From assembly GCA_017552715.1 (NCBI GenBank), contig JAFZOW010000006.1, positions 34,887 to 98,886 on the forward strand: a stretch of DNA of 64,000 bases, given 5' to 3'. Each line of letters starts with the position of its first letter. Within the stretch, counting starts at the first letter, position 1. The translations under genes were made by a program, and so were the position numbers. Of this stretch, positions 5,733-63,898 are shown piece after piece. The stretch comes from Lachnospiraceae bacterium (GTDB lineage: Bacteria > Bacillota > Clostridia > Lachnospirales > Lachnospiraceae). Below the pieces are notes generated by a model that was not told the origin of the DNA, searched no databases, and was given only the letters and a program-made list of their open reading frames with translations.

Positions 5733-5738
5733 GATATG

Positions 5739-5761: not shown

Positions 5762-5797
5762 AAAGTAATACTTACATGAGGAAAAGGAGGTAGTGCA

Positions 5798-8158: not shown

Positions 8159-8214
8159 AAAGACCTCCTTTGGAACGGGTTTATATCAAATTATTGTGTA
8201 TTCCACTCCAAAAC

Positions 8215-8245: not shown

Positions 8246-8270
8246 ACAACAAGTTTGTCGGGAGGTGGCC

Positions 8271-10270
<2,000 letters not shown>

Positions 10271-10303
10271 TGACCTTATAACTTTCGCAGGGGGGAGGAA
10301 ACT

Positions 10304-11674: not shown

Positions 11675-11702
11675 GCATTTGACAGTTAAGGAGTTATACA
11701 GA

Positions 11703-11731
11703 GTCCGCTGATCCCATCAGCGGACTTTTTT
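11703..11731 (+). terminator. Intrinsic terminator after the guaB/GGDEF unit
   Basis: GTCCGCTGAT (11703-11712), loop CCC, ATCAGCGGAC (11716-11725), then six T. The 10-bp stem is perfect. It separates guaB and the GGDEF gene from the glycan operon. Confidence 0.95.
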
Positions 11732-11763
11732 CTGAAACAGCCCTTATTCACGCTGTTCTTTAA

Positions 11764-11792
11764 GTGACAGATCGGGAATAATATGCTATACT
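11764..11792 (+). promoter_or_regulatory. Promoter of the surface-glycan operon
   Basis: GTGACA (11764-11769), a 17-bp spacer and TATACT (11787-11792), with TATG directly upstream forming an extended -10. It lies 32 bp before the ribosome-site-supported ATG at 11825 and directly after the terminator. Confidence 0.8.
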
Positions 11793-11824
11793 GTACTGTG
11801 GATTTTTGTGGGAGGTTTTCTGTT

Positions 11825-16671: not shown

Positions 16672-16675
16672 GAAT

Positions 16676-17728: not shown

Positions 17729-18849
17729 TGGCGTTGATCGCACTTCTTACCAACAATGACGATGATATCTACTGCTTCCGCAAGGAGCTGATCGAAGCTC
17801 TGATCGACGAAGGCTATACGGTGCTGATCTCCTGTCCCTACGGCGAGAAGTTTAAGCTGATGGAGGGGATACCCTATATCTATGACGATCCCGTTATTGA
17901 CCGGCGCGGGACTAACCCTGTGGCGGATGCAAAGCTTTTTGCACATTATCTCACACTCTTTGCAAAGCATCAGCCGGCGGTGGTACTGACCTATACGGCC
18001 AAACCCAACGTATACGGAAGTCTGGCGGCCAGGATGCTCAATATACCCGTGATCAACAATCTGACGGGCTTCGGCTCGGCCCTGCAGGGAAGCGCGCTGA
18101 AAAAAGGCCTGATCCTGCGGCTTTTCCAGCTGGCCTACCGGGGTTCACGCTGTATCATGTTCCAGAATTCCACCAATAAACGTCTGGCGGAGCATTACCG
18201 TATGGTGAAGGGGAAGGGACGCCTGATCCCAGGCTCCGGTGTGGACATGCGGCGTTTTCCCGTATTGCCTTATCCGGAAGGCGGGGACGGAAAGAGCGGC
18301 CCTGTTGTGGTCTTCAACTACATAGGACGTATCCTGCACGATAAGGGAGTGGATGATTATATCGAAGCGGCACGGCGCATCCGGGCGGCTTATCCCAACA
18401 CCCGCTTTAATATGCTGGGTTTCATCGAACCCACCGAAGAGCATTACAGCGGTCTGCTTAAGGAGCTTGAAGAACAGGATATCGTTCATTATCTGGGCAG
18501 CCAGGCGGATGTACATCCCTTTATCGAAAAGGCCCATGCCATCATCCATCCCTCTACCTACGGGGAGGGGATGAGTAATGTACTGCTGGAGAATGCTTCC
18601 TCCGGGCGGCCCCTGATCACCACGGACAACCCCGGCTGCCGCGAGACCCTGCGGGACGGAGTGAGCGGCTTTATGTATCCAGGTGGGGATGTGGATGCCC
18701 TGGTGGCTGCCGTGGAGCGTTTCCTGGCTCTGCCCAATGAAGAACGCAGGGAAATGGGGCTGAAAGGGCGGCAGCGTATGGAGCGATACTTTTCACGGCA
18801 GATCGTGATCGATGCCTACCTGGAAGAGATAAAAGAGGTCCTGAAATGA
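17728..18849 (+). CDS. GT4 family glycosyltransferase
   Basis: A 373-residue GT-B enzyme. The N-terminal Rossmann half has NNDDDIYCFRKELIEAL and LTYTAKPNVYGSLAAR. The C-terminal half has the nucleotide-sugar site with the EX7E motif GEGMSNVLLE and IPGSGVDMRRF. It resembles PglA-type enzymes adding a second sugar to a lipid-linked amino sugar. It is cytoplasmic or peripheral on the membrane. It is coupled to its neighbours: the first base of its ATG is the last base of the previous stop, and its end gives an ATGA overlap with the next gene. Donor and acceptor cannot be told. Confidence 0.9.
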   Translation: MALIALLTNNDDDIYCFRKELIEALIDEGYTVLISCPYGEKFKLMEGIPYIYDDPVIDRRGTNPVADAKLFAHYLTLFAKHQPAVVLTYTAKPNVYGSLAARMLNIPVINNLTGFGSALQGSALKKGLILRLFQLAYRGSRCIMFQNSTNKRLAEHYRMVKGKGRLIPGSGVDMRRFPVLPYPEGGDGKSGPVVVFNYIGRILHDKGVDDYIEAARRIRAAYPNTRFNMLGFIEPTEEHYSGLLKELEEQDIVHYLGSQADVHPFIEKAHAIIHPSTYGEGMSNVLLENASSGRPLITTDNPGCRETLRDGVSGFMYPGGDVDALVAAVERFLALPNEERREMGLKGRQRMERYFSRQIVIDAYLEEIKEVLK

Positions 18850-45489: not shown

Positions 45490-45516
45490 TTAGCACTCTG
45501 CCTTGACGGCTGCTAA
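45490..45516 (+). promoter_or_regulatory. CIRCE element upstream of clpB (imperfect)
   Basis: TTAGCACTC (45490-45498), N9, GGCTGCTAA (45508-45516). The left arm is perfect; the right arm differs at two positions from GAGTGCTAA. It overlaps the -35, as expected for HrcA repression. Confidence 0.85.
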
Positions 45517-45590: not shown

Positions 45591-48167
45591 ATGAACATCC
45601 AGAAATTTACCCAGAATTCCATGCAGGCAGTGGAAGATATGGAAAAATATGCCGTGGAATACGGTCATCAGGAGCTGGAAGAGGAGCATCTGATCTATGC
45701 CCTGCTTAAGCTTGAGGATTCCCTCATCCTCCGGCTGGTGGAAAAGATGGAGATCAATACGGAACACTTCTGCGGCCGCATCGAGCAGGCTCTCGGTAAG
45801 CGGGTTAAAGTGCAGGGCGGCAAGATGCACATCGGCGAGGACCTGAACAAGGTACTGATCACGGCAGAAGATGAAGCCAAAGCCATGGGAGACGATTACG
45901 TTTCCGTGGAGCATCTGATGCTGGCCATGATACGTCATCCCAACCGGGAGATGAAAGCGGTCTTTACGGAATACGGCTTTACCCGTGAACGTTTCCTTGG
46001 GGCTCTGCAGCAGGTCCGGGGGAATCAGCGGGTGGTGAGCGACAATCCGGAAGCCACTTATGACACTCTGGAAAAATACGGACAGGATCTGGTGGAACGG
46101 GCAAGGGCGCAGAAGCTGGATCCCGTTATAGGCCGGGATGCGGAGATAAGGAATGTGATCCGTATCCTTTCCCGCAAGACCAAGAACAATCCCGTGCTGA
46201 TCGGTGAACCCGGTGTCGGTAAGACCGCCGTGGTGGAAGGGCTGGCCCAGCGTATCGTGCGAGGCGATGTGCCCCAGGGGCTTAAGGACAAAAAGATCTT
46301 TGCCCTGGATATGGGGGCCCTGGTGGCCGGAGCCAAATACAGAGGTGAGTTTGAGGAGAGACTGAAAGCCGTACTTGAAGAGGTGAAGAAGAGTGAAGGG
46401 CAGATCCTGCTCTTCATCGATGAGCTGCATACCATCGTTGGAGCCGGTAAGACCGACGGAGCACTGGATGCCGGAAATATGTTAAAGCCCATGCTGGCCA
46501 GGGGAGAACTGCACTGCATCGGTGCCACAACCCTGGATGAATACAGGAAGTATATCGAAAAGGATCCGGCTCTGGAGAGGCGTTTCCAGCCGGTACACGT
46601 GGAGGAGCCCACGGTGGAGGATACCATCTCCATATTGCGCGGCCTGAAGGAACGTTATGAGGTATACCACGGAGTTAAGATCCTGGATAATGCCCTGGTG
46701 AGCGCGGCGTTGCTCTCCAAACGCTATATCAGTGACCGTTTTCTGCCGGACAAAGCCATCGATCTGGTGGATGAGGCCTGCGCCATGATCAAGACGGAGC
46801 TGGATACCATGCCCACAGAGCTGGACGAACAGTCCCGCCGCATCATGCAGATGGAGATAGAAGTAGCGGCGCTGAAAAAGGAAGATGACAACTTAAGCCG
46901 TGAACGTCTGGAAGACCTGAGCCGTGAGCTGGCGGAAGAAAAAGAAAGCTTTGAGACTGCTAAGGCCAAGTGGGAGAATGAGAAGGCCGCTGTGGACAAG
47001 GTTTCAAAGTTGAGAGAGCAGATCGAGGCGGTAAATAACGAGATCCAGATCGCCCAGCGTGAAGGAAATTATGAAAAGGCCGGCGAGCTTTCCTACGGGA
47101 CTCTGCCGGAGCTGAAAAAAAAGCTGGAGCAGGAGGAGAATACGGCGGGTAAGAAGGAAAACCGTCTTGTGCATGAAAATGTCTCCGAGGAGGAGATCGC
47201 CCGCATCATCAGCCGCTGGACCGGCATACCCGTATCCAAGCTAAACGAGAGCGAGCGCAACAAGGCCCTGCATCTGGATACGGAGCTGCATAAAAGGCTC
47301 ATCGGACAGGATGAGGCGGTACAGCGGGTCAGCGAAGCCATACAGCGTTCCAAGGCCGGTATCAAGGACCCGTCCAAGCCCATCGGAAGCTTCCTGTTCC
47401 TGGGACCTACAGGCGTAGGTAAGACAGAGCTGGCCAAGAGTCTGGCGGAGGCCCTTTTCGATGACGAGAGCAATATGGTGCGTATCGATATGAGCGAATA
47501 CATGGAGAAGCATGCGGTCTCCCGCCTTATCGGAGCGCCTCCGGGATATGTGGGCTATGATGAAGGCGGCCAGCTGACGGAAGCGGTACGACGCAGGCCC
47601 TATTGCGTGGTACTCTTTGATGAGGTGGAAAAAGCTCATCCGGATGTGTTCAATGTGCTGCTGCAGGTTCTGGACGACGGCCGTATCACCGACTCCCAGG
47701 GAAGGCTGGTGGATTTCAAGAACACCATACTGATCATGACCTCGAATATCGGGGCACAGAGCCTGCTGGAAGGGATCGATGCGGAAGGGAATATCACCGC
47801 GGAGGCGGAAGAGGAAGCCATGGATCAGCTGCGGGAGCAGTTCAGACCCGAATTCCTGAACCGTCTGGACGAGGTCATCTGCTTCCGGCCGTTGACTAGG
47901 AAAAATATCGGTGGTATAGTGAAGCTGGTCCTGAAAGAGCTGAACGGACGGCTTTCGGACCGGGAGATCTCCGTGGAGCTTACGCCGGAGGCAGAGGAGC
48001 TGGTGGCAGAGGAAGGCTACGACCCCGTATACGGCGCCAGACCGCTGAAGCGCTATATCCAGAAGCATGTGGAAACACTGGTGGCAAGGCGCATCCTTTC
48101 CGGCGGAGTATCGCAGGGAGATACCATACGGATCGGGGCTGCGGATGGAGAACTTCAGATACTTTAA
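45591..48167 (+). CDS. clpB: ATP-dependent disaggregase ClpB
   Basis: Hsp100 chaperone that rescues aggregated proteins with DnaK. The 858 residues show the N domain (two Clp-N repeats), NBD1 with Walker A GEPGVGKT, the coiled-coil M domain (about 400-530), NBD2 with [23 protein letters not shown], and the C-terminal domain. There is no ClpP-binding IGF loop, consistent with ClpB rather than ClpC/ClpA. AGGGAGGTG precedes the ATG. It is controlled by a CIRCE/sigma-A-type promoter, hence by HrcA. It overlaps the foldase gene by 23 bases. Confidence 0.98.
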
Positions 48168-49185
48168 AGCTATTGCAGTGATAATGCTGAGCCTCATTCT
48201 TCTTACGGCCTGCGGGGGAGGACAGATCGTCCTGACCACGGGCTTCGGGGAGGATGAGGTTTTTCGCGTGGAGGATATACACTGCAGCAGGTCGGAGGTG
48301 CTGCTTTATATGCTTTCCCTGCGGCAGCAGTATGAAAAGGCCTACGGAAGCGGTCTGTGGAACGCCGGTGAGGAAGGCCAGGAGCTGATGGGAGAACTGA
48401 AAAAAACGGCACTGGCCCGGATCGGACGGGTGAAGCTCATGAACCTGATGGCAGAGCTTTATCAGGTGAGCCTGAACAAGGAAGAGGAAAAGAAAGCAGC
48501 GGAAGCCGCAAATGAATATTATCAGAGTCTTTCCCCGGAGGAGATAGCGGCTCTGGATGGGATACGCTCCGGCGAAGTACAGCGGCTTATGAAGGAATAT
48601 GCCGTCGCCCGGAAGCTGTACCGGGAACTGACGAAGGATGTGAACATCGAGATCAGCGACGACGAGGCACGTATCATCACCCTGCACCAGATCGCCCTGT
48701 ATGTGGTGCATACCGCCGATGACGGGACCGTGATCGAAGCCACCATCGAAGAGCTGAAACGCAGAGCCGCGGAGCTGAAGGACCGGATAGACGAGGGGGA
48801 GGATTTTGACAGCCTTGCTTATGGAAACAACGAAGCAAAGGAGCTGGTGATCAGTTTTCCCAAGGGTGTGATGCCGGCAGCCGTGGAGGAGGCCTGCTTC
48901 GCGCTTGCGGAGGGAGAGGTGAGCGATGTTGTCGCTACGGAGGAAGGGGTCTTCCTTTTCAAGTGTATCAGTACCTACGAGCGGGAGCAGACCGAGGAGA
49001 GAAAGACGGAACTGGCCCGGGAAAGACAGAAGGAAAGCTTTGAGGCCCGGTATGAGGAGTTTGTCAAAGACAAGGCCTATTATCTGAACGAGACGCTCTG
49101 GGAGAGCATTCAGTGCCCGGAAACCGGCAGCGGTGAGCAGACGGATTTCTTTACCGTCTACGAAAATTATTTTCCCGAAACATAG
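48145..49185 (+). CDS. PrsA/SurA-like peptidyl-prolyl isomerase lipoprotein
   Basis: ATG 48145 ([10 protein letters not shown]) gives a clean lipoprotein signal with lipobox LTAC; upstream in-frame starts sit within clpB. The 346-residue protein has a helical SurA_N-like region (about 40-190), then a parvulin-like domain with [54 protein letters not shown] and [15 protein letters not shown], and a helical tail. It should assist folding of secreted proteins at the outer face of the membrane. Co-transcription with clpB places it in the heat-shock regulon. Confidence 0.88.
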
Positions 49186-49190: not shown

Positions 49191-49217
49191 TTAGCACTCA
49201 AATCAAATGAGTGCTAA
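49191..49217 (+). promoter_or_regulatory. CIRCE element upstream of htpG (perfect)
   Basis: TTAGCACTC (49191-49199), N9, GAGTGCTAA (49209-49217), an exact match to the HrcA operator consensus, ending 7 bp upstream of the -35 box. Confidence 0.97.
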
Positions 49218-49253: not shown

Positions 49254-49336
49254 CTTTTACGGTAATGAGAAATGCGGGATGCCGGGCTGTCAGCTCCGGT
49301 GTTTCGAAAGAAAAAGAGAAAGGAAGTGCATCAAGT

Positions 49337-51418
49337 ATGGCTGCAAAAACCGGCAGTTTATCCATTAACAGCGAGAACATTTTTCCCATCATCAAGAAGT
49401 GGCTCTATTCCGATCACGATATCTTTTACCGTGAGCTTGTGAGCAACGGCTGCGATGCCATCACCAAGCTGAAAAAGCTTGAGATGATGGGTGAATATAC
49501 CCTGCCTGATGACTATAAGCCGAAGCTTACCGTTGAGGTGAGCCCGGAGGACAAGACCATCCGTATCACGGATAACGGTCTGGGTATGACGGCGGAAGAG
49601 GTGGAGGAGTATATCACACAGATCGCCTTTTCCGGAGCTACCGATTTCATTGAGAAGTATAAGGATAAGGCCAATGAGGACCAGATCATAGGACATTTCG
49701 GTCTGGGCTTCTATTCTGCCTTCATGGTGGCGGAAAGAGTGGAGATCAATACCCTTTCCTATAAGGAAGGCGCAACGGCCGTACACTGGAGCTGCGACGG
49801 CGGTACCGATTATACCATGGAGGACGGAAAGCGTACCGAGGTGGGTACCGAGGTGATCCTTCATGTGAGCGAGGACTGCGCAAAATTCTGCAATAAGTAT
49901 GAGGCCGAGGATGTGCTGAAAAAGTACTGTTCCTTCATGCCCTACGAGATCTTCCTGGAGAAGAAGGGAGAGGAGCTGACCGAGACCATCGATGCCGACG
50001 ATAAGAAGGACGATGATGTGGTCCTGGAGGATGTGACTCCCGAAAAGAAAGAAGATGACAAGGAAGAGCCGAAGAAGCGTCTGAAGATCCGTAAGCGTCC
50101 GGTGCCTTTGAACGATACCACGCCTCTTTGGGCAAAGCATCCCAATGACTGCACGAAGGAGGAGTATCTGGAGTTTTACCGTAAGGTATTCCACGATTAC
50201 AAGGAGCCTCTGTTCTGGATCCACCTGAACATGGACTACCCCTTCAATCTCAAGGGCATACTTTACTTCCCGAAGATCAATATCGAGTTCGAGAGCATCG
50301 AGGGCGTGATCAAGCTGTACAACAACCAGGTGTTCATCGCGGATAATATCAAGGAAGTGATCCCCGAGTATCTGATGCTCCTTAAGGGTGTGATCGACTG
50401 CCCGGATCTGCCGCTGAACGTGAGCCGTTCGGCCCTGCAGAACGACGGCTTCGTCAAGAAGATCTCGGAGTATATCTCCAAGAAGGTGGCGGATAAGCTT
50501 TCCGGCATGTGCAAGACCGAAAGGGAAGAATACGAGAAATACTGGGACGATATCTCGCCTTTCATCAAGTACGGCTGCCTGAAGGATGATAAGTTCTGTG
50601 AAAAGATGACGGACTATATCCTCTTTAAGAATCTGGACGGGAAGTACGAGAGCCTGCCGGAATGCCTGGAGGTTAAGCCCATCGATCCCGGAGATGAGGA
50701 AGAGGGAGAAAAGGCCGAGGATGCCGAGGGCAACAAGGTAGAGGCCGAGATCGTCGACGAGCCGAAGGAAGAGGGTGAAGCCGGCAGTGATGCGGCGGAA
50801 GAGAAGAAAGACAAGAAGATCTATTATGTGACGGATGAGCAGCAGCAGAGCCAGTATATCGCCATGTTCAAAAAGGCGAAGAAGGATGCCGTGGTGCTGA
50901 AGGATCCCATCGACCAGCATTTCATTACCCAGCTGGAGAGCAAGAACGAAGGCGTAAAGTTCATGCGCATCGATGCGGATCTGACCGAGGACTTTAAGAC
51001 GAAGACTTCCAAGAAGGCCCAGGAGGAGCTGGATGCCCAGACGGAAGAACTGTCGAAGATATTCAAGAAGGCCATAAAGAAAGACAATCTGACGGTGAAG
51101 GTGGAGAAGCTGAAGAACAAGGATATCTCCTCCATGATCACCGTATCCGAGGAGACCCGCCGCATGCAGGATATGATGAAGATGTACTCCATGCAGGGCA
51201 TGAACCTCGGAGCCATGGGGAAGGAAGGCTATACCCTTGTGCTGAACGCCAACAACAAGCTGGTTCAGAAGATCCTTACCGACAAGGAGGGCGAGAATGT
51301 ACAGCTCCTCTGCGAGCAGCTATACGATCTTGCACTTCTGCAGAACGGGCCGCTGGAGGCCGAAGCCATGAGCCGCTTTGTGGCACGGAGCAACCGGATC
51401 ATGGGCCTTCTGTTATAA
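49337..51418 (+). CDS. htpG: Molecular chaperone HtpG (Hsp90), with acidic insertions
   Basis: The ATG at 49337 (MAAKTGSLSINS) has AAAGGAAG upstream. The N-terminal GHKL ATPase domain shows FYRELVSNGCDAI, RITDNGLGMTAEEV and GHFGLGFYSAFMVA. A charged linker (about 218-250, Asp/Lys/Glu-rich) leads to the middle domain with PLWAKHPNDCT and LPLNVSRSALQND. A second, strongly acidic stretch (about 453-495) interrupts the region between middle and C-terminal parts, longer than in E. coli HtpG as I recall. The C-terminal dimerisation domain ends at 694 residues. Under CIRCE control. It is followed by a terminator whose loop holds the next promoter's -35. Confidence 0.95.
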   Translation: MAAKTGSLSINSENIFPIIKKWLYSDHDIFYRELVSNGCDAITKLKKLEMMGEYTLPDDYKPKLTVEVSPEDKTIRITDNGLGMTAEEVEEYITQIAFSGATDFIEKYKDKANEDQIIGHFGLGFYSAFMVAERVEINTLSYKEGATAVHWSCDGGTDYTMEDGKRTEVGTEVILHVSEDCAKFCNKYEAEDVLKKYCSFMPYEIFLEKKGEELTETIDADDKKDDDVVLEDVTPEKKEDDKEEPKKRLKIRKRPVPLNDTTPLWAKHPNDCTKEEYLEFYRKVFHDYKEPLFWIHLNMDYPFNLKGILYFPKINIEFESIEGVIKLYNNQVFIADNIKEVIPEYLMLLKGVIDCPDLPLNVSRSALQNDGFVKKISEYISKKVADKLSGMCKTEREEYEKYWDDISPFIKYGCLKDDKFCEKMTDYILFKNLDGKYESLPECLEVKPIDPGDEEEGEKAEDAEGNKVEAEIVDEPKEEGEAGSDAAEEKKDKKIYYVTDEQQQSQYIAMFKKAKKDAVVLKDPIDQHFITQLESKNEGVKFMRIDADLTEDFKTKTSKKAQEELDAQTEELSKIFKKAIKKDNLTVKVEKLKNKDISSMITVSEETRRMQDMMKMYSMQGMNLGAMGKEGYTLVLNANNKLVQKILTDKEGENVQLLCEQLYDLALLQNGPLEAEAMSRFVARSNRIMGLLL

Positions 51419-53026: not shown

Positions 53027-53053
53027 GAAGAGTGTCTGTACGGAAATGAAACG

Positions 53054-53084
53054 AGCGGCTGCCCCATGCGGGCAGCCGCTTTTT
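53054..53084 (+). terminator. Terminator after the lipoprotein gene
   Basis: AGCGGCTGCCC (53054-53064), 5-nt loop, GGGCAGCCGCT (53070-53080), followed by a T-run. Perfect 11-bp stem. Confidence 0.96.
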
Positions 53085-53085: not shown

Positions 53086-53114
53086 TTGTAATTTCTCATC
53101 GATGATGGTATACT
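53086..53114 (+). promoter_or_regulatory. Promoter of the DUF5717 cassette, next to the start codon
   Basis: TTGTAA (53086-53091), 17-bp spacer, TATACT (53109-53114) with TGG upstream as an extended -10. Only 9 bp separate the -10 from ATG 53124, so transcription would begin within about 3 nt of the start codon and the mRNA would be practically leaderless. Confidence 0.75.
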
Positions 53115-53123: not shown

Positions 53124-56100
53124 ATGAAGGAGATACTGTCAAAGATCCTGGCGGAAGATCATGATTTCGGAGAGACGCGTCAAGCTCTCTCCTTTTCGTG
53201 TGAAGAGCTTGTTTGCGAGATGCCTCCGGACCGGAGGCTTCACGGGAGCTTCTCCATCTATTCCGCCGACGGTGCCCATATATATGTATATTCCGGGGAT
53301 CTGCGCATTCTGATCGAGAACGAGGAATACAACGGGAAGAATGCGGAGGTCTGTTACACGGTGGACAGCTTCGGGCTGCCCCACGGGGCGGTCCATGAAG
53401 GCAGTCTTCAGATCATCTCCGATCACGGGGAATTTGAACTGCCCTATCGCATCGTGGTGAGCGGTTCCCTTCCCGATTCCTCCATGGGAGAGATACGTAA
53501 TCTTTTCCACTTTGCCAATCTGGCCAAGGCGGACTGGGAAGAGGCTCTTTCTTTATTCTATTCCGATCGATTTTCGGCCGTTCTGAACGGGACGGATGCG
53601 CAATACAGGTCCGCTTACCGTGGTTTTTCCGCCACAACGGGGAATTCCCGCAATATGGAGAACTTCCTGGAGGTGAGCCGGAAAAAGACAAGAGCCGATA
53701 TCCGCCCGGAGACGGAAAAGGTAGATATGATGCTGCCCAGAAAGAGCATGCGCAGACATATCCGTCTGGTCCGGGAGGGCTGGGGCTATTCGGAGCTGCA
53801 GCTTTCTGCCGAAGGGGACTTCCTGGCAGTGGAGCAGGAAACTCTGCTGGCATCCGATTTTCCGGGGAATGTGGGAGAGTTTTCCTACATCATCGATCTG
53901 GACGGCCTGCACACGGGAATGAACACGGGAGCACTGATACTCAGGGAAGGCCTGAAGGAGCTGCGTATCCCCGTATGTGTAGATGTGCCGGTGGCCAAGG
54001 TGGATCTGAGCGCCGAAAAGAGGATCATAAACCTCATGCAGCTGTATATCGATTATCGTGTGGGGCGCCTGGGGCTGGCGGAATTTGCGACCAGGGCCGA
54101 GCGACTGATCGAACGTGTGCTTTCCGAAACACCGGATGATCTGGAATACCGTTTGTATCAGGCCCAGCTGCGGGTGGCGGAAAAACGTCTGGCGGAAGCT
54201 GCGATGATCCTTGAACGGATAGAAGCACTGGCGGAGGAGAAGCCTGTTCCTCCGGAGCAGGAGGCATACCGGCTGTGGCTTTCCAGTATCTGCGATCATG
54301 ATCCTGAGCAGAATTCCGAATATCTCAGACGGGTGGAAGAACTGTACCGCCCGGATTCCGGAAACTGGCGACTGGCCTGGATCCATATGAACATGGACCC
54401 GGATTACAGAGATAATGACCGCAGGAAATGGCGGATGATCAAACTGCAGTATACGGAGTACGGTAATGCGAGTCCCGTTCTCCTTCTGGAGGCTTATCAT
54501 ATCCTGGTACAGGCTCCGAAACGTATGGATGAGCTGGGGGATTTCGAACTGGCACTCATGCGTTTTGCACTCCGCAAGGGCATCCTCAGCCGGGAGATGA
54601 CGGAACGTATGGCCATACTCTCCATGGATGTGACGGTCTATAACGAAGAACTCTGCCGCCTGCTGATGGAAGCCTATATGCCGGAGGAGAGTGTTGTCCT
54701 GCTGGAGGCGGTCTGCCTGATGCTGATCCGGGGAAACGTGAGCAGCGAAGAGGCTTTTGTCTGGTACAGCCGGGCCATAGAACGTGAACTGCGTATCAGC
54801 CGGCTTTATGAATACTATATCTGCAGCGCTCCTTTGAATTTCAAAGGCCTGCTGCCCCGTATCCTTCTGATGTATTTTGCCTATCGTTCTCCCCTGGACG
54901 CGGAGCGGAACGCTTTTCTCTATGCAAATGTGCTGCGTCACAGGAGTGAATACAGCGAGGTATATGACCAGTACCTGCCGGTGATCACGGAATTTGCCAG
55001 AGAACAGCTGGAGAAGGGGAACCTGAACGATAATCTGGCATATATCTACAAAAAGCTCTTTTCCGGCAAACGGCAGGAACAGTGGATCACGGATGCTTAT
55101 ACGGAGCTGCTCTTCTGTGAAGAGATATCCGTGCAGGATCCGGGGCTTAAGCGGCTGGTAGTGGTCTATGAACATCTGGAAGAGGAACAGGTCTGGTCCT
55201 TTTTTGCAGGCAAGGCGGTGGTGCCGCTGTACGGGGAGCATTTCAGTCTGCTCCTGGAGGATGAACGGGGCGACCGTTACGGAGACGAAGAACTATACAG
55301 CCGGAAAAAGCTCCTGAAAGAAAGCCCGGATGCTAAGAGGCTTCTGAACCTGGAGCATCCTTCCATGGGAGCCATGCTGGCTCTGGCAGAGATGAGCGGC
55401 GATGCGATACAGATCACGGCCGATAACGCGGATATCTTTGCAAGGCTTTCGGAAAGCGAAGGGGTTACGGAGGAGTACCGCCTTCGCATCATGATCGCCC
55501 TTGCGGAGTACTATTTCGATGCGGATGAGATCGTTTCCCTGGACGATCTGCTGCTTCGTTTCGATCCCCTGAGCCTTTCGGCGGTGGACAGGGAAAAATG
55601 CGTGCATATCATGGTGGCCCGCGGGCTATATGATGAGGCTTTTGAATGGGTCTGCCGCTGCGGATCGGAGGGCATCGATGTAAAGATACTGGTGCGCCTG
55701 TGTGACCGCCTGCAGGCAAGACGCGATCAGGAATACAATCCCGAGATACTCAAGATCTGCCGCGGTATCCTTCTGCAGGGGCGTTATGACGAGGAGATAT
55801 TAAACTATCTGCTGCGCTACGGCAGAGGAAATCTGAAAGAGCGCAAGGAATTGTGGCGCGCCGCGGATTCCTTCGGACTGGAGGTACAGGACCTGCTGGA
55901 GAGTATGATGCTGCAGCAGCTCTTTACCGGAGTGATGCTGCCGGAAAAGGAAGCGATCTGGCTGGAGCATATCAGCGGAGGGATCGGGACGGAGCTGGAA
56001 CAGGCTTATGCCGCAGTACTCTGCTACGATTATTTCATGAAACAGGAAGCCATGGGGGATAAGCTCTTTGACCGGCTGGCCCAGCTCTGCCGCCTGGGGG

Positions 56101-56690
56101 AAGAACTGAAGCAGATCTGCATCCTGGCATGGCTGAAGCATGCTTCGGAAAAGCCGGAGCTGTCGGAAGAGGAACGGAGCCTCTGTGAAGCATTCCTTCG
56201 CAAGGAAAGAGAGCTGGACATCTTCCTGCCGTTCTTTACCCGCTTTTCTTCCATGGATCCCTTTGCCTGTATACTTGCGGGGCAGAGCTTTGTGGAATAT
56301 GTGGGGCGTGAAGGCTCACAGGTTGTGCTGCATTACGTACGGGAGAACGAAGGGGAGGAAGAGAGTGAACCCGACTACCGGAGAGAGGAGATGCAGCATG
56401 TATACGGAGGCATCTACGTGAAGCGCTTCCCCCTCTTTTTCGGGGAACGCATCCATTATTATATCACAGAGGAAGACGGGCGCACGGAGAAGCTGACACG
56501 TTCTTCGGTGCTGGAATACAGTGATCCGGAACAGGGGACCGCGGAAGACCGTTTTACCCTGATCAACAATATCGCCATTGCGGAAGAGATGAATGACGAA
56601 GTAACCTTCCTTAAGCTCTTCCGTGATTATGACCGCCAGAAGCATATGTGCGAGCATCTGTTCCTGCCGGCCGGGACAAAGAGGGAGTAA
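53124..56690 (+). CDS. DUF5717 family giant protein
   Basis: I recognise DUF5717, seen in Lachnospiraceae and without function. The 1188-residue protein has no signal peptide or clear membrane helix. Residues ~20-120 and ~205-295 look like two beta-sandwich domains (LHGSFSIYSADGAHIYVYSGDL; HIRLVREGWGYSELQLSAEG). A very long alpha-helical region follows (~310-1050) with repeated paired helices like TPR or HEAT arrays, for example DLEYRLYQAQLRVAEKRLAE. A C-terminal beta domain (~1080-1188) ends the protein. No ribosome site is seen; the promoter abuts the ATG. The next gene starts 5 bp after its stop. The domain arrangement suggests a scaffold or tethering protein for the cassette, by inference. 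Confidence 0.82.
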   Translation: MKEILSKILAEDHDFGETRQALSFSCEELVCEMPPDRRLHGSFSIYSADGAHIYVYSGDLRILIENEEYNGKNAEVCYTVDSFGLPHGAVHEGSLQIISDHGEFELPYRIVVSGSLPDSSMGEIRNLFHFANLAKADWEEALSLFYSDRFSAVLNGTDAQYRSAYRGFSATTGNSRNMENFLEVSRKKTRADIRPETEKVDMMLPRKSMRRHIRLVREGWGYSELQLSAEGDFLAVEQETLLASDFPGNVGEFSYIIDLDGLHTGMNTGALILREGLKELRIPVCVDVPVAKVDLSAEKRIINLMQLYIDYRVGRLGLAEFATRAERLIERVLSETPDDLEYRLYQAQLRVAEKRLAEAAMILERIEALAEEKPVPPEQEAYRLWLSSICDHDPEQNSEYLRRVEELYRPDSGNWRLAWIHMNMDPDYRDNDRRKWRMIKLQYTEYGNASPVLLLEAYHILVQAPKRMDELGDFELALMRFALRKGILSREMTERMAILSMDVTVYNEELCRLLMEAYMPEESVVLLEAVCLMLIRGNVSSEEAFVWYSRAIERELRISRLYEYYICSAPLNFKGLLPRILLMYFAYRSPLDAERNAFLYANVLRHRSEYSEVYDQYLPVITEFAREQLEKGNLNDNLAYIYKKLFSGKRQEQWITDAYTELLFCEEISVQDPGLKRLVVVYEHLEEEQVWSFFAGKAVVPLYGEHFSLLLEDERGDRYGDEELYSRKKLLKESPDAKRLLNLEHPSMGAMLALAEMSGDAIQITADNADIFARLSESEGVTEEYRLRIMIALAEYYFDADEIVSLDDLLLRFDPLSLSAVDREKCVHIMVARGLYDEAFEWVCRCGSEGIDVKILVRLCDRLQARRDQEYNPEILKICRGILLQGRYDEEILNYLLRYGRGNLKERKELWRAADSFGLEVQDLLESMMLQQLFTGVMLPEKEAIWLEHISGGIGTELEQAYAAVLCYDYFMKQEAMGDKLFDRLAQLCRLGEELKQICILAWLKHASEKPELSEEERSLCEAFLRKERELDIFLPFFTRFSSMDPFACILAGQSFVEYVGREGSQVVLHYVRENEGEEESEPDYRREEMQHVYGGIYVKRFPLFFGERIHYYITEEDGRTEKLTRSSVLEYSDPEQGTAEDRFTLINNIAIAEEMNDEVTFLKLFRDYDRQKHMCEHLFLPAGTKRE

Positions 56691-56695
56691 GGGAT

Positions 56696-58012
56696 ATGCC
56701 CGGGATAGAAGGCATAAAAAGTGCATTGGGAAAGGGAGCAAGAGACCGGGCCTTTATAGGTATCGATCTTACGGATGAGTTCTCGCAGCTGAGCTTCTCC
56801 CTTGGGGAGGAGGATCCGCGTACTCCCAGCCTGGTACAGGGGAAGGAGCGGCTCTGCATCCCCACCATGCTGGCCAAGAAGTACGGGGAAAGTGTATGGA
56901 CCTACGGGGAAGAAGCCGTGGAGATGGTTGCGGCGAATGAGGCTTTTCCCGTGGACAGGCTGGTGGAGAGGGCTCTGGACGGAGCTACGGTAGAGGTGGA
57001 GGCCGTGGATTACAATCCGCGGGATCTGCTGGCTCTTTATATCCGGCGCTGTCTGTCCCGCATGTCTCCCTACACGCCGCTGGAAAAGGTGGCGGCCATC
57101 GTGATCAGCGTGGAGGATCCCAACGAGGAGATGATCGCGATCCTGAATCATGTGGTAAAGACCCTGCGTCTTAAACCGGAGCGGGTGTTCTTCCAGAGCC
57201 ATGCGGAAAGTGCCTATCATTATATAATGCATCAGTCAGCCGATGTGAGGGCGGCGGATACCTGTGTCTGTGATCTGCGTTCTACGGGGCTTAAGCTGAT
57301 GATCTACTCCCAGAATATCCAGACCAAGCCTCATGTAGTGATCATGCAGGAGAGAAACTATGACAATTTCCTGCCGGAGGATCTTGCCGGGGCAAAGGAT
57401 CCGGAGCTGCGCAAGGCGGCCAAGGACAGGGAGTTCTATCAGATCCTCTACAGTCATATCGAAGGACGGAGGCTTCAGGCAGCCTTCCTTCTGGGAGACG
57501 GTTTCGAGGGCGACTGGATGAAAGAGAGCCTGAAGTACCTCTGCAAAGGACGCAGGGTTTTTCGGGGGAACAATCTCTTCAGCAAAGGGGCCTGCTACGG
57601 TGCCAGGGAAAAACTGGAGCCTTCGGAGGAAGAGCGGGGGAATATCTTCCTGGGCCAGGATAAGGTAAAAGCGAATATCGGTATGCGGGTGATGCGAGAG
57701 GGCCGCGAGGCCTATATGGCGATCCTGGATGCCGGGAAAAACTGGTATGACACCTTCCGGGAGTGCGAGCTGATGCTCTGCGAAGAGGAACGGCTGGAAT
57801 TCATCGTAACCCCCTTAAACGGCAAGGACGTGAAGAAGGTGCCAATGTATCTGAAAGGACTGCCGCGGCGCACGCGGAGGACGACGCGGATACGTCTGCG
57901 TATGGAGATGATGTCGGAAAACCGGGTAAAGGTTGTGGTACGGGATCTGGGGTTCGGAGAGATCTTCCCTTCTTCCAATTCCGAATGGGAAATGGATTTC
58001 AAGGTATCATAG
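56696..58012 (+). CDS. DUF5716 family protein, probable actin/Hsp70-fold ATPase
   Basis: ATG 56696 is preceded by GAGGGAG. It is recognised as DUF5716, a usual partner of DUF5717. In the 438 residues I see an actin/Hsp70-superfamily pattern: phosphate-1-like FIGIDLTDEFSQL (20-32), a linker helix with FFQSHAESAYHYI (165-177) comparable to the Hsp70 EPTAAAxAYG segment, phosphate-2-like DTCVCDLRSTGLKL (188-201), and adenosine-like LLGDGFEGDWMKESLK (265-280). The usual GGGT in phosphate 2 is changed, so nucleotide hydrolysis is uncertain. The C-terminal ~100 residues are a basic beta domain (LPRRTRRTTRIRLRMEM). The ATPase idea is inference from motifs only. Confidence 0.78.
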   Translation: MPGIEGIKSALGKGARDRAFIGIDLTDEFSQLSFSLGEEDPRTPSLVQGKERLCIPTMLAKKYGESVWTYGEEAVEMVAANEAFPVDRLVERALDGATVEVEAVDYNPRDLLALYIRRCLSRMSPYTPLEKVAAIVISVEDPNEEMIAILNHVVKTLRLKPERVFFQSHAESAYHYIMHQSADVRAADTCVCDLRSTGLKLMIYSQNIQTKPHVVIMQERNYDNFLPEDLAGAKDPELRKAAKDREFYQILYSHIEGRRLQAAFLLGDGFEGDWMKESLKYLCKGRRVFRGNNLFSKGACYGAREKLEPSEEERGNIFLGQDKVKANIGMRVMREGREAYMAILDAGKNWYDTFRECELMLCEEERLEFIVTPLNGKDVKKVPMYLKGLPRRTRRTTRIRLRMEMMSENRVKVVVRDLGFGEIFPSSNSEWEMDFKVS

Positions 58013-58025
58013 AGAGGAAAGAACT

Positions 58026-58862
58026 TTGTCGGGAGTATATGAATGCGTGGGGCGCTATGCCAACACGCCGCTGACGATCAAGAATACCTATGTACGTGTG
58101 TGGAGCCTGGAGGAGCTGTGCTACTACATCTGTGAAAATGCGGCTTTAGTAGACGACAGTATAGTTACGAGCGAGCTCTTTGTATGGCTCTCGGAAGAGC
58201 TGGGGCTTAAGGAACTGGTGAAGCGCCTGAAGCAGATCCGCCGGCAGAGCGTGCGGCTGGAAAGCTTTATTGCCGAGATCCTGAACGAAGCTCATTATGT
58301 CTCGGAGGAGGAGCTGAAGACCATAGGCCGTGTCATACGGGCGAACCGCAGTATGCCGGAAACCGAGCGGAATATGGTGATGGGTGATTATTATCTGAGA
58401 GGCGGACATTACATCCCGGCACTCAGGACCTATATGGGGCTTATGCATGACAGTCTGGACGGTCCGGATCCGAAGCAGCTGGCCAGGATACTTTATAATA
58501 CGGCGGTGATCTATGCCAGGCTTTTCCTGTTTGAGGAGGCGGCGAAATACTACCGGGCATCCTGGGAACAGTCCGGAAGCCGGGAAGCATTGATCGGTCT
58601 TCTTTCCGCAAAACGTATGCAGCTTTCCGATGCCGATTATATGAAGTATCTGAACGAGCTGCCGGAGGCCCTGGAGGTATCCGGCGAGGTGGAAAAACGT
58701 ATGGCTGCCATACGCGCTGCCTACCCGGAGGAGGGGAACGGCGAACGTATCGAGGAACTGCGGCGCATCCGTATCGGCAGCGACCGTGCCGAATACGAAC
58801 AGAGAGCCGGTGAGCTTTTGAACGAAGAGAAAGAAAGCTACCGGAAAGCCATGCTGGAGTAA
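58026..58862 (+). CDS. Helical-repeat (TPR-like) protein of the DUF5717 cassette
   Basis: The start is TTG 58026: AGAGGAAAG lies 5-6 nt upstream and no in-frame ATG occurs nearby. The 278-residue soluble protein begins with a conserved-looking SGVYECVGRYANTPLTIKNTYVRVWSLEELCYY block (about 1-35). It continues as paired helices with TPR character (MVMGDYYLRGGHYIPALRTY; ILYNTAVIYARLFLFEEAAKYY). I cannot name the family. It sits 13 bp after DUF5716 and 3 bp before the coiled-coil gene, so it is part of one operon and probably an adaptor. Confidence 0.75.
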   Translation: MSGVYECVGRYANTPLTIKNTYVRVWSLEELCYYICENAALVDDSIVTSELFVWLSEELGLKELVKRLKQIRRQSVRLESFIAEILNEAHYVSEEELKTIGRVIRANRSMPETERNMVMGDYYLRGGHYIPALRTYMGLMHDSLDGPDPKQLARILYNTAVIYARLFLFEEAAKYYRASWEQSGSREALIGLLSAKRMQLSDADYMKYLNELPEALEVSGEVEKRMAAIRAAYPEEGNGERIEELRRIRIGSDRAEYEQRAGELLNEEKESYRKAMLE

Positions 58863-58865
58863 GGA

Positions 58866-60083
58866 ATGGGATTATTCAGGAAGCTTCGGGAAAAATGGGA
58901 TCGCCGTTACTATCCGGATGAGAGCGAATGGGACGGGGAAGAAGCCTGGGATGAGGAAGGTCTGGAGGAAGACCGCCCGCTGTCCCAGAGGGGGGCTCAT
59001 TATTTTTCCGATGCGGATACGCGTACCGTATATGTGCTGGAAGCCCTGGAGCAGATGAGCGAAGCCTCCGAGAAGGTGGAGCAGTATCAGGGAGAATATG
59101 ATGCCGTGACGGCACTGCTCATGGATATGGAGGAGATCGAGGATCTGCCCAATGACATGCGTGTTGCCATCATGGAGCAGGCTTCAAAGATCGAAAAACT
59201 GGAAAAGGAGCGCCGGCAGGTCTTTGTTACCGCAGGACAGCTGGATGAACACCGGGTGGATCTTTTAAAGCGCTATGAGGACGAGATCCCCGGAGGCGTG
59301 CGGAAGATGCGGGAGGCGGAGGAATACCGCAAACTGGTGAAGATGGATCTGCGGAAGATGGATGCGGAGAAGGCGTCCATACGTTATCAGCTGCGGGAAG
59401 CGGTGCTGACGGTCTCCAACAGCCGGGGGGTGGCCATCATCTGCGGCGTTGCCATGGTCGTCGCCATAGGTATACTGCTGGCCCTCCAGAAGATGATGGG
59501 ACTGGATGTGAGCTTTGGTTACATACTCATCGGAGGGGCGGGAGCGATCTCCCTTACGGTGCTGCTGGTCCGGTATCAGGACGCAGTACGAGAGATCAAA
59601 CATCTGGAAAAACTGAGAGATAAGATGATCGGTCTTCATAATACGGTGAAGATCCGTTTTGTCAACAATACAAATCTCTTGTCCTATCTGTATATGAAAT
59701 ATGGTGTAGACAATTCCGGGGAACTGGAAGAGGATTATCAGTCCTATATGGAGGTGATGGGGGCCAGACAGAAAGATGAAAAACTGAAAGAGGATCTGGA
59801 GTATTATTATAAAAAACTGGCGGATACCCTGAGGAAAAGCAATATCAAGGATCCGGAGATCTGGACCCGTCAGGCCAGAGCCCTGGTGGATCCGCGGGAG
59901 ATGGTGGAAGTGCGGCATGCCCTGATCGGGCGAAGAGGAAAACTGAGGGAACAGCTGGAATACAACAAAGAGGTTGCTGAGCTGGCCGGACAGCGGATCA
60001 AGGATCTGGCCAAGGCATATCCCCAGTATTCCCGGGAGATCGCGGGGATCGTTGAACGTTATGAAGGTAATATACCGGTATAA
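58866..60083 (+). CDS. Coiled-coil membrane protein of the DUF5717 cassette
   Basis: The 405-residue protein starts with a basic-aromatic then very acidic region (MGLFRKLREKWDRRYY, then DGEEAWDEEGLEEDR). A coiled coil follows (about 60-180), then two membrane helices forming a short hairpin (about 190-212 and 219-237) and a second coiled coil (about 240-400). Both long arms should be cytoplasmic, giving a membrane anchor with two coiled-coil arms. The family is not recognised. A short GGAATG lead-in precedes the ATG. It ends the cassette, 15 bp before purC. Confidence 0.75.
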   Translation: MGLFRKLREKWDRRYYPDESEWDGEEAWDEEGLEEDRPLSQRGAHYFSDADTRTVYVLEALEQMSEASEKVEQYQGEYDAVTALLMDMEEIEDLPNDMRVAIMEQASKIEKLEKERRQVFVTAGQLDEHRVDLLKRYEDEIPGGVRKMREAEEYRKLVKMDLRKMDAEKASIRYQLREAVLTVSNSRGVAIICGVAMVVAIGILLALQKMMGLDVSFGYILIGGAGAISLTVLLVRYQDAVREIKHLEKLRDKMIGLHNTVKIRFVNNTNLLSYLYMKYGVDNSGELEEDYQSYMEVMGARQKDEKLKEDLEYYYKKLADTLRKSNIKDPEIWTRQARALVDPREMVEVRHALIGRRGKLREQLEYNKEVAELAGQRIKDLAKAYPQYSREIAGIVERYEGNIPV

Positions 60084-61000: not shown

Positions 61001-61876
61001 TTACTGCCGCAGTATCGTCATCATGATCTCCCTGCGGTTTTTTTCGTCTGTGCGGTAGTACTGTGCAATCTTTTTCAGCATACCGTCCACGTTTCCGGAG
61101 GCTTCGCCGATACGCAGTGAGGCGATCAGATCCGAAGGAAAAACGTCCTGCATCTGGAGGGCGTCGGATAAGGGGATGCCGCGGCTTACGATCTCAGCCG
61201 CCCTCGCTACTTTATCCCGCAGGATCTGATAGCGTATGGATTTCATGCAGTAGCGCAGACCCGTCTCCACGGCTACGCCGCTGTCATAAAAGAGTGCCAT
61301 ATTATCCGCAAGATCCGCCAGCTCGGCGGTTTTTATCCCTCTTCCCAGGAAAGGCAGATGGAGCAGGATGTCTCCGGCGATGCTGCTGCCCTTTACCAGT
61401 GCGCTTCCTCCGTAAAAACTCAGGATCAGAAAGGTGATCCCTGCCACAAGGATCACTACGATAGCTATGGCCGCCGGCAGGACATGCCAGACCGAAGCCA
61501 CGGCCAGAAAGCATATGATGGCAACGATCAGTACGATCATGGGATACAGGGCGGCCTGAAGAAGACGTTTTCTTGTACTTTCTTTTTCGTCAAAATAGAC
61601 GGCCATGCGGGAAAAGGCCTGCTCCACATGCCCCGTCTGTTCCGTGACATAGACGATGTTCACCAGCTCCGGTGTGTAGACAGCTTCGTCCCTCCGCATG
61701 GCTTCGCTGAGCTGCATCCCCAGACGTACACCTTCGGAAGTGCGGTGGATGGCTCCGCTTAAGGGAGAAGTTTTATCTTCCCGCAGGATCACGAGAGCAT
61801 GTTCGATGTCGAACCCGGCCCGCAGGGCCTGATCCATCTTGTGACAGAAAAGTGCCAGTTCCCTCAGCTTTGACAT
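61001..61876 (-). CDS. Short GspF/PilC-like type II secretion inner-membrane protein
   Basis: The 291-residue protein has two T2SSF domains: the first (about 10-105) with GFDIEHALVILRED, LSEAMRRDEAVYTPELVNIVYVTEQTG and FDEKESTRKRLLQA; then two membrane helices (about 106-155); then a second (about 180-285) with DNMALFYDSGVAVETGLRYC and PSDLIASLRIGEASGNVDGML. It stops right after KNRREIMMTILRQ, so the third membrane helix normal for GspF/PilC is missing and the protein is ~100 residues short. No ATPase, pilin or peptidase gene is nearby. It overlaps its coiled-coil partner by 13 bases. It may be a platform protein for a reduced pilus or a repurposed homologue. Confidence 0.85.
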   Translation of the reverse strand: MSKLRELALFCHKMDQALRAGFDIEHALVILREDKTSPLSGAIHRTSEGVRLGMQLSEAMRRDEAVYTPELVNIVYVTEQTGHVEQAFSRMAVYFDEKESTRKRLLQAALYPMIVLIVAIICFLAVASVWHVLPAAIAIVVILVAGITFLILSFYGGSALVKGSSIAGDILLHLPFLGRGIKTAELADLADNMALFYDSGVAVETGLRYCMKSIRYQILRDKVARAAEIVSRGIPLSDALQMQDVFPSDLIASLRIGEASGNVDGMLKKIAQYYRTDEKNRREIMMTILRQ

Positions 61877-62393: not shown

Positions 62394-62463
62394 ATGAGTA
62401 TTGGAATCCTTGGTATAATGTTTTCTGGCTAAAGACAAACATAAGGAGGAAACCAATACTCAT
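62394..62463 (+). repeat. Inverted repeat over the transposase start (read-through hairpin)
   Basis: ATGAGTATTGG (62394-62404) pairs perfectly with CCAATACTCAT (62453-62463), and, across an A-A/A-A internal loop, TCCT (62407-62410) pairs with AGGA (62447-62450). The right arm contains part of the ribosome site and the AU of the transposase AUG. The element's own -10 lies in the loop. Confidence 0.8.
62411..62419 (+). promoter_or_regulatory. Transposase promoter -10
   Basis: TGGTATAAT: a perfect TATAAT (62414-62419) with the TGn extension, giving a start near 62426, downstream of the left hairpin arm. No clear -35 is seen. Confidence 0.6.
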
Positions 62464-63898
62464 GGACATTATAACACTTTTAGCCGATTATGTAAGAGGT
62501 CTTTTAGATGCGGAGGATCAGTTTATCCAGGATCTTGGACAGTTCCCCAGACTGGAACAGACAGTGAGTGATCTGAGCAGGAAGATGGCAGCTGATTTTC
62601 TCTCCCTGGTACTAAGCAATGCCGATGAACTACTCCGTTCAAGCGGGCGAAGGAAGGCAAGGTATAACGCGCAGAGACGTGTTACACGTACCTTGATATC
62701 GACTGTTGGGGATGTGACCTTTGATGAGACCGTATTTCGTGACAGGAAGACCGGGGAATACCGGCGCCTGCTGGGAGAGATGCTTCGGTTGCCGGAGAGG
62801 GAGAGGTTCACTTCTCTTGCTGAAGCAAAACTCCTGAACGAAGCAGAGGTTCATTCTTACCAACGGGCTGCAGATGCATTCAGTACCGGCCAGCATAAAG
62901 TTACAAAGACCACAGTGATGAACAAGATCCACGCCATTGAAGAGATCATGCCGGAGGCGGAAAAGCCGGAGGAGAAAAAACAACAGCGGTATCTGTACAT
63001 TGAAGCGGATGAAGATCACATCCATAGGCAGAAAGACGGTCAGAATGATGGCTGCATGATCGGTAAGCTGATCTATCTGTTTGAAGGGAAAGAAGATATC
63101 TGTGAGGGCCGAAGAGAACTCATACACCCCTTCTATTTCGGCGGCTTATATCCCGGAGATCAGAACAGCGGACTGTGGGATGAAGTCGAGAACTACATCC
63201 GTGATCACTACGATCAGGATTACCTGAAGTGCGTGTATATCAACAGTGATGGTGCTGCCTGGATTAAGGCCGGAAAAGACAGGGTGTATAAGAGTCGGCT
63301 GGTATCAGACCGTTTTCACCTGATGAAATATATCAACCGGGTGGCCCGTCTGACAGGTGATAAAAAGCTGATAAACGAGGCGAAGGGAAGGTTTTACAGA
63401 TACATCTATAAAGACAAGCTCCTTGCTGCAGAGAAGTTGCTGACGCGCATAAAGAACCGCTACGGAGGGGAGAATGCAGTTGAGGATTGCCGTAGTTACT
63501 TTGAGAATAACTGGGATTCGATCCAGAGAGCATTCCACGATAAAAAAGTTCTGGGATGCAGTGCAGAAGGTCATGTGAGTCATGTGCTTTCTGAACGTAT
63601 GAGTTCGAGACCTATGGGCTGGAGTGAAGTCGGTTCTGACAGGATGTGCCGACTGAGATGTTATGTGCGGAACTATGGACGGGAAAAGATCGTTGATCTG
63701 GTTACATACCGCAGAGAGAAAGAACTTGAGAAACTGCCGGCAACCGGAACAGACGGATTGATCGGAACAAAACAGAAAAAGACATACACACAGGAGCAAC
63801 GCCGGGCTTACACATATGTTGAAAAACTCCAGGCAACGATAGGCGGCACTACCGCAAGGAAGATACTGGCAATCCGGGAACAGATCGACAATATTTGA
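62462..63898 (+). CDS. ISLre2-family transposase (UPF0236)
   Basis: A 478-residue, apparently intact transposase. Family patterns are YNAQRRVTRTLISTVGDVTFDETVFRDRKTG, YLYIEADEDHIHRQ (with the acidic residues of a probable DDE/D active site), VYINSDGAAWIKAG and SDRFHLMKYINRVAR. AAGGAGGA lies 12-13 nt before the ATG, a rather long spacing. Both this site and the AUG can be sequestered by an inverted repeat in transcripts entering from outside. It catalyses movement of the surrounding IS. Confidence 0.93.
   Translation: MDIITLLADYVRGLLDAEDQFIQDLGQFPRLEQTVSDLSRKMAADFLSLVLSNADELLRSSGRRKARYNAQRRVTRTLISTVGDVTFDETVFRDRKTGEYRRLLGEMLRLPERERFTSLAEAKLLNEAEVHSYQRAADAFSTGQHKVTKTTVMNKIHAIEEIMPEAEKPEEKKQQRYLYIEADEDHIHRQKDGQNDGCMIGKLIYLFEGKEDICEGRRELIHPFYFGGLYPGDQNSGLWDEVENYIRDHYDQDYLKCVYINSDGAAWIKAGKDRVYKSRLVSDRFHLMKYINRVARLTGDKKLINEAKGRFYRYIYKDKLLAAEKLLTRIKNRYGGENAVEDCRSYFENNWDSIQRAFHDKKVLGCSAEGHVSHVLSERMSSRPMGWSEVGSDRMCRLRCYVRNYGREKIVDLVTYRREKELEKLPATGTDGLIGTKQKKTYTQEQRRAYTYVEKLQATIGGTTARKILAIREQIDNI

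Follow-up and report, generated by a model that had tools for sequence, protein, structure and literature searches.

Which system could be encoded by four tightly packed genes in a Lachnospiraceae genome (contig JAFZOW010000006.1)? The genes occupy positions 53124..60083 of the analysed stretch of 64,000 nucleotides (the window) and code for a giant scaffold (DUF5717), a DUF5716 protein, an adaptor resembling tetratricopeptide repeat (TPR) proteins and a membrane coiled-coil protein. All four open reading frames (ORFs) were confirmed, on the + strand and at the positions given in an earlier interpretation made without database searches (the sequence-only reading), in which they were considered a candidate membrane-linked ATPase system. 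Comparison of sequences gives good support to a particular origin: the cassette appears to descend, by reduction, from a multi-Hsp70 chaperone operon that occurs in other families of the order. The evidence supports retention by the family of DUF5717, the TPR adaptor and, mostly, the coiled-coil protein, together with the one Hsp70 that was already catalytically degenerate, DUF5716.

Relationship of DUF5716 to Hsp70

DUF5716 (438 amino acids (aa); ATG at 56696, stop at 58012, + strand) is matched by the Pfam model DUF5716_C (E 5e-99; this query, like that of the TPR protein, carried a short upstream extension). Its membership of the Hsp70 family by descent is supported by profile alignments (hhalign). 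The DUF5716 profile was aligned with that of Hsp3, an Hsp70 of the related loci described below, over 413 columns (99.1%, 6e-19), and with that of their degenerate Hsp2 (1.6e-50); the negative controls, the coiled-coil and DUF5717 profiles, gave a probability of 0.1% each. The C-terminus of DUF5716 aligns to the peptide-binding beta domain of Hsp70 (SBD-beta). The predicted architecture includes a nucleotide-binding domain (NBD) with a shortened subdomain IIB region and an SBD-beta-like C-terminus. Hsp2 of locus L071 is matched in Pfam by both DUF5716_C (1.5e-26) and HSP70 (1.4e-17). The assignment of DUF5716 to actin/Hsp70-type ATPases in the sequence-only reading is supported as to the relation with Hsp70 and unsupported as to the ATPase, the Lys70, Glu171 and Thr199 columns being changed in all 31 family sequences.

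A functional Hsp70 ATPase is marked by phosphate-1 GTT, Lys70, Glu171 and phosphate-2 GGGT (numbering of E. coli DnaK). Eleven residues were checked (D8, G10, T11, T12, K70, E171, D194, three glycines and T199), the catalytic positions being taken from one alignment of 104 sequences. T11, T12, K70, E171 and T199 are each found in 0/31 DUF5716 sequences (2/31 are gapped at K70), and the glycine triad is mostly lost. Phosphate-1 and adenosine-like motifs, which had been recognized earlier, do exist as positional equivalents; phosphate-1 (and phosphate-2) lacks the ATPase residues. As judged by sequence length only, the span from Thr199 to the adenosine glycine (G341), which holds IIB, comprises 54–71 residues in DUF5716 (median 67). 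DnaK has 137 residues there and the genome's second Hsp70 has 128; the medians are 140 for Hsp2 and for Hsp3, 147 for Hsp70-VWA and 174 for Hsp1. Since the ATPase residues are lost and the IIB stretch is approximately halved, DUF5716 is probably no ATPase. In a review of bacterial Hsp70 machines (PMC8215388), Lys70 is described as bonding to the gamma phosphate, and GrpE as acting by tilting the NBD subdomain IIB.

No ATPase domain was found by the Pfam scan of DUF5717, the TPR-like and the coiled-coil proteins. With Lys70, Glu171 and Thr199 lost in 31/31 sequences and the IIB stretch approximately halved, the idea of an ATPase system was rejected, with the reservation of a conserved Glu near the Glu171 column. 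The former adenosine region of DUF5716 has the highest mean conservation of five segments compared (0.68 vs. 0.37–0.52) and carries a new conserved block, GDGFEGDW..CRGRRVF.GNN..SKGACY.

Larger Operon in Other Families of the Order

A larger operon of presumably ancestral type with three intact Hsp70s and GrpE, missed by the sequence-only reading, is the more surprising find. In the closed genome of locus L071 its order is as follows: DUF5717 (at least 1315 aa), Hsp1 (559 aa), a GrpE-ending protein (644 aa), Hsp2 (523 aa), Hsp3 (551 aa), Hsp70-VWA (692 aa) and a TPR protein (387 aa). The GrpE domain lies at the end of the 644-aa protein (3e-13, Pfam). The full order is present in 14/20 loci (L063, L065–L072, L074, L075, L077–L079); DUF5717 is often split in two in these loci, and L065 and L066 show small extra ORFs. 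No Hsp3 gene was called in L076, yet a 549-aa Hsp3 frame was seen there in a separate search. In L064, L080, L081 and L082, the operon is interrupted by other ORFs or incomplete. The ORFs splitting the system genes of these four loci code for approximately 80–420 aa and look as if inserted. L073 (genome G002, 4402–18229) harbors an intermediate-looking operon of the larger type with all the parts, in which the GrpE protein is shortened (279 aa) and two ORFs each correspond to Hsp70-VWA and to TPR.

All eleven ATPase residues are intact in Hsp1 (17/17), Hsp3 (18/18) and Hsp70-VWA (16/16). Hsp2 retains Lys70 in 0/20, Glu171 in 2/20 and Thr199 in 0/20 sequences. Hsp1 scores 264 bits against an equivalog cut-off of 648 bits in the comparison with DnaK/HscA, and the larger-operon Hsp70s are far below these cut-offs. 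As for a J-domain protein, no DnaJ was present among the Pfam matches listed for eight larger-operon proteins; HPD tripeptides are located within Hsp70 or DUF5717 sequences.

In favor of reduction, the larger operon offers a homolog for every part of the cassette. The scores between window and larger-operon proteins (query-vs.-query, given as bits in a comparison set of 15 sequences) are 80–88 for DUF5717, 59–63 for the coiled-coil protein and 23–25 for the TPR protein; the TPR family profile A7 retrieves the L071 ortholog at 69 bits. DUF5717 of L071 is matched by the same Pfam models as that of the window (DUF5717_N and DUF5717, 1.6e-84 and 9.5e-28). The coiled-coil gene adjoins the larger operon in 7/20 loci. 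In a genome-wide search of 13 larger-type genomes, its homolog was present once in 13/13, next to the operon in two (G107 and G002) and elsewhere in 11.

At the phylum level, the GrpE-fusion profile was matched in 44/398 genomes, in 43 of them via the GrpE-type C-terminal part (nearly) only and in G396 via another region, in a 1137-aa frame; none of the 44 matches resembles the operon protein.

Probable Reduction of the Operon in the Family

Among the genomes of other families of the order, 49/128 have the GrpE-fusion protein above 100 bits; within the family, 0/19 do, the 100-bit line having been drawn after the score table was viewed. Weak GrpE-type matches only were obtained in five further genomes, two of them from the family. 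An Hsp3 ortholog (>950 bits) is found in 4/4 larger-type genomes and absent in 21/21 family genomes, where the best matches of the Hsp3 query are other Hsp70s (<200 bits). The same four larger-type genomes carry an Hsp1 ortholog (>650 bits), and none of these 21 family genomes does (best match 180 bits). No Hsp70-type frame of at least 690 aa appeared in the family genomes during the Hsp1 and Hsp3 searches; a search with the Hsp70-VWA query was not made.

Besides DnaK, the window genome encodes a second Hsp70 (559 aa); two short Hsp70-type matches, 332 and 336 aa long, are probably MreB. The 559-aa protein is HscC-like by length only and meets no NCBIfam cut-off.

In a tree of 54 proteins (HscA absent), all 15 DUF5716 sequences form one clade (100/99), sister to Hsp2 of L073 (100/99), and the larger-operon Hsp70s branch apart from DnaK and the 559-aa Hsp70 of the window genome. 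When the tree is read with DnaK as an outgroup, DUF5716 arises from the Hsp2 grade. Five rows are long-branched and 13, including DnaK, have unusual composition, so the finer points of the tree are unsure. The simplest history suggested by these data would be one of loss, in which the motors and GrpE disappeared and the inactive paralog and the scaffold were retained.

Cassette Genes and Their Distribution

DUF5717 (1188 aa; 53124..56690, +) is matched by DUF5717_N (E 8e-248) and DUF5717 (E 1e-84); nearly the whole length of window DUF5716 and DUF5717 is covered by the DUF5716_C, DUF5717_N and DUF5717 models. The PDB profile search with DUF5717 gave no useful match and did not show FNIII domains in it. 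The TPR-like adaptor (278 aa; TTG at 58026, stop at 58862, +) is tentatively assigned from its ortholog relations to the larger-operon TPR protein: its own Pfam TPR matches are below the cut-off, and clear TPRs (5e-26) are found in the larger-operon ortholog. The membrane coiled-coil protein (405 aa; 58866..60083, +) contains two neighboring hydrophobic segments (near residues 192–210 and 217–235) flanked by coiled-coil-like arms; four relatives have one segment above the threshold. The adaptor and the membrane protein had both been anticipated by the sequence-only reading.

Of 120 family genomes (119 genera; completeness of 90% or more), 118 contain DUF5717_N and 117 contain DUF5716_C, with one DUF5716 copy per genome. 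Co-occurrence of the genes in other genomes, on which the sequence-only reading had made its proposal depend, was borne out: where both genes lie on one contig (113 genomes), they are adjacent, on the same strand and with DUF5716 downstream in 113/113 cases, the gap between the model matches being 1.2–2.1 kb. In four genomes the genes are on separate contigs; G224 has DUF5717 only, truncated by a contig end, and G166 and G218 have neither gene. The presence of the pair in 117/120 genomes indicates that the cassette is not due to chance.

Gene order was followed in 31 family loci, namely 17 of the 18 loci from a scan of named relatives, 13 loci from other family genomes and the window. The 18 named loci include 16 titled Lachnospiraceae, one titled only Bacillota and one from Agathobacter, a genus of Lachnospiraceae; L049, whose match spans only 399 bases at the edge of a contig, was too short and is excluded from all locus counts. 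The TPR gene directly follows DUF5716 in 31/31 loci. The coiled-coil gene comes next in 25/31; in one locus (L041) it is cut off where the contig ends, and the other five do not have it behind TPR. DUF5716 and TPR are fused into one gene in 5/117 genomes, the check having covered only frames of unusual length, and these fusions are a sign of physical partnership. Gene calls in relatives were mechanical, from a simple longest-ORF chooser, which missed the TPR and coiled-coil genes of L036 (recovered by a separate search) as well as the Hsp3 ORF of L076.

In a class-level scan, DUF5717_N was found in 14/293 genomes: 13 belong to the same family, and one match is weak and below the cut-off. The limit of the system to the order is loose, since this sample apparently includes no more than three genomes from other families of the order, all devoid of the operon. 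A plasmid collection searched with DUF5717 gave no match, and a mobile origin was rejected on this ground. DUF5717 was also found in four faecal records named 'Bacteriophage sp.' (MT835988, MT835486, MT837190 and MT835719), which are perhaps bacterial DNA in virome assemblies.

Neighboring Genes and Local Signals

Upstream of the cassette, HtpG (Hsp90; 49265..51418, +; Pfam HSP90, 6.7e-63) is encoded, a possible functional partner. It is preceded, outside the cassette, by a perfect operator of the CIRCE type (controlling inverted repeat of chaperone expression; 49191..49217, +; 0 mismatches, 0 matches in 100 shuffles). A CIRCE-like operator with two mismatches (45490–45516; none in 100 shuffles) precedes clpB, and a lipoprotein with a peptidyl-prolyl isomerase domain (48067–49185) lies between the clpB and htpG sites; together these make up a proteostasis island. 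Heat-shock control of the cassette itself was considered and rejected, as CIRCE precedes htpG and clpB, not DUF5717.

HtpG is present in 25/25 genomes searched. It lies within the fetched flank in 11/31 family loci, 10 of which show a perfect CIRCE in front of it, and stands upstream of DUF5716, on the same strand and within 15 kb, in 7/19 family genomes. In G128 the distance is 54 kb, and in the remaining genomes of the 19 HtpG is elsewhere or on another contig. These data are suggestive of a functional link between the cassette and housekeeping chaperones.

A terminator-like hairpin (53053..53081, +; 12-pair stem and T tail) is located between a lipoprotein gene and DUF5717; with 15 terminator-like sites in the region and 12.6 expected, the pattern carries little weight by itself. 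A -10-like TATACT preceded by TG (53109..53114, +) ends 9 nt 5' of the DUF5717 ATG, and TATACT or TATAAT was seen by eye 9–10 nt 5' of this ATG in seven related loci (L032–L035, L039, L040 and L045). A near-leaderless start or transcript of DUF5717 is possible. Directly 3' of the cassette, purC starts at 60099. The cassette is also flanked by genes for a UPF0236-type (transposase-like) protein (62462–63898) and a T2SSF-type membrane protein (61001–61876, -), both by Pfam.

Possible Mechanism and Alternative Explanations

For a cassette whose origin is well supported we infer a mechanism, to which roughly even chances could be given: a membrane-linked, non-ATPase client-binding scaffold relying on housekeeping DnaK/HtpG and reduced from the multi-Hsp70 operon. 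DUF5716 would run no ATP cycle and could serve as a client- or partner-binding module, as its SBD-beta-like C-terminus and new conserved block suggest. The TPR protein would hold DUF5716 on the DUF5717 scaffold, and the coiled-coil protein would anchor the complex on the cytoplasmic side of the membrane. There the complex could hold or localise client proteins, and refolding that needs ATP would fall, in trans, to the housekeeping chaperones DnaK and/or HtpG.

Several observations weigh against this mechanism or its parts. The best PDB sequence match of DUF5716 in a PDB profile search is DnaK, at E 0.059, which is not significant alone. No genome-wide match to the coiled-coil gene was obtained in four family genomes keeping the other three genes, and in L048 an unrelated ORF follows TPR in its place; with four family genomes devoid of a recognisable coiled-coil gene, the membrane tether is not essential everywhere. 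HtpG proximity is seen in only 4/13 genera sampled (contig breaks may hide more), and HtpG is distant from the operon in both closed larger-type genomes. Two family genomes without the cassette also carry HtpG and DnaK. In the window, the terminator-like hairpin stands between htpG and the cassette, and CIRCE precedes DUF5717 in none of the 51 loci scanned. Finally, DUF5716 retains Asp8 in 28/31 and Asp194 in 20/31 sequences, and a Glu stands at most three residues from the Glu171 column in 28/31 DUF5716 (motif QSHAES) and 17/20 Hsp2 sequences, so that a shifted catalytic Glu is possible.

The main rival explanation is a membrane-bound complex with a structural or regulatory task in cell shape, in division or in assembling the envelope or pili, comparable to FtsA or PilM, in which the dead Hsp70 would be a mere building block with no chaperone work. 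The near-universal, housekeeping-like spread with one DUF5716 per genome could be explained in this way, as could the changed ATPase site, the membrane coiled-coil partner and the fact that conservation is strongest in the former adenosine block and not in the SBD-beta part (0.52). The descent from an operon of intact Hsp70s and GrpE argues against it, as does the retained SBD-beta-like domain, which is not known from FtsA and PilM. A structural complex is a credible explanation, though a doubtful one.

A bolder form of the favored scaffold mechanism can also be proposed. The pseudo-Hsp70, the TPR protein and the giant scaffold might constitute a membrane-tethered co-chaperone platform for HtpG and DnaK, a bacterial counterpart in role to the eukaryotic Hsp70/Hsp90 organising proteins. 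It would have arisen from a self-contained machine with four Hsp70s through loss of the motors and of GrpE, followed by reliance on housekeeping chaperones. This proposal is rather unlikely.

A biological-conflict (anti-phage or stress) system is improbable. According to the paper on GAP1-N2 systems (PMC7159879), these GTPase-centric conflict systems share an HSP70 and GrpE theme, a second HSP70 without the peptide-binding domain occurs in a subset, and FNIII-DnaJ or FNIII-TPR proteins are combined with them near the membrane. Against such a kinship, a scan of 12 flanking proteins, taken from 8 of the 20 larger-type loci, showed no GTPase and no GAP1, no PADLOC family was assigned to the four window proteins, the family-wide spread is unlike that of patchy defence systems, and DUF5717 had no plasmid match. 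A defence system was also rejected as a candidate after the PADLOC search of nine proteins (Hsp2, TPR and coiled-coil proteins of the larger operon were left out), in which the only match, weak, was PDC-M61B, to two larger-operon Hsp70s. Plasmid tblastn with Hsp70-VWA returned 86 records, none with at least 80% query cover; the 10 listed cover 64–70%, and among those listed the annotated feature, where present, is dnaK.

A genuine ATP-driven machine, in which DUF5716 would form filaments or be active as an actin/Hsp70-like ATPase, would fit the Hsp70-type alignment, the retained aspartates and the nearby Glu. The changed Thr11, Thr12, Lys70, Glu171 and Thr199 columns, the mostly lost glycine triad and the shortened IIB stretch argue against it, and with the reservation of that conserved Glu it should be regarded as highly improbable.

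Comparison with Known Systems

The Pfam descriptions of DUF5716_C, DUF5717_N and DUF5717 give no function and no Hsp70 link. No paper naming DUF5717 or the three PF numbers was found, and 'DUF5716' was met only in what, by its listing, appears to be a cancer study. Literature searches on Hsp70 with VWA and GrpE, on inactive Hsp70 and on Lachnospiraceae chaperones and essential genes revealed nothing on the system except the GAP1-N2 paper, and no report of an operon with three intact Hsp70s, a degenerate Hsp70 and GrpE and VWA fusions was found. The earlier impression that the cassette matches no known system thus agrees with these searches.

Two gene families without assigned function, present in 117–118 of 120 family genomes, gain a place among the Hsp70s, and their function becomes testable. 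An evolutionary step can be traced in which the motors and the exchange factor of a chaperone machine are gone and an inactive paralog with its scaffold is retained nearly everywhere in a family.

Three prokaryotic types of Hsp70, DnaK, HscA and HscC, are distinguished in the review cited above (PMC8215388). Like DnaK, HscA and HscC, the larger-operon Hsp1, Hsp3 and Hsp70-VWA keep every ATPase residue checked, and DUF5716 aligns along its length with these larger-operon proteins. Unlike them, the DUF5716 of the window is devoid of the catalytic residues and of approximately half of the IIB stretch.

The HSP70/GrpE theme of the GAP1-N2 systems is the nearest published relative. Like these systems, the larger operon combines HSP70, GrpE and a further HSP70 with a TPR-bearing scaffold and a link to the membrane. 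Unlike them, it shows no GTPase or GAP1 in the 12 scanned flanks (8/20 loci; other flanks were viewed by eye only), its GrpE is the terminal domain of a long protein, a VWA domain is fused to Hsp70, and four Hsp70-type genes are present. The Lachnospiraceae cassette differs further from the GAP1-N2 systems in that it retains one degenerate Hsp70 only.

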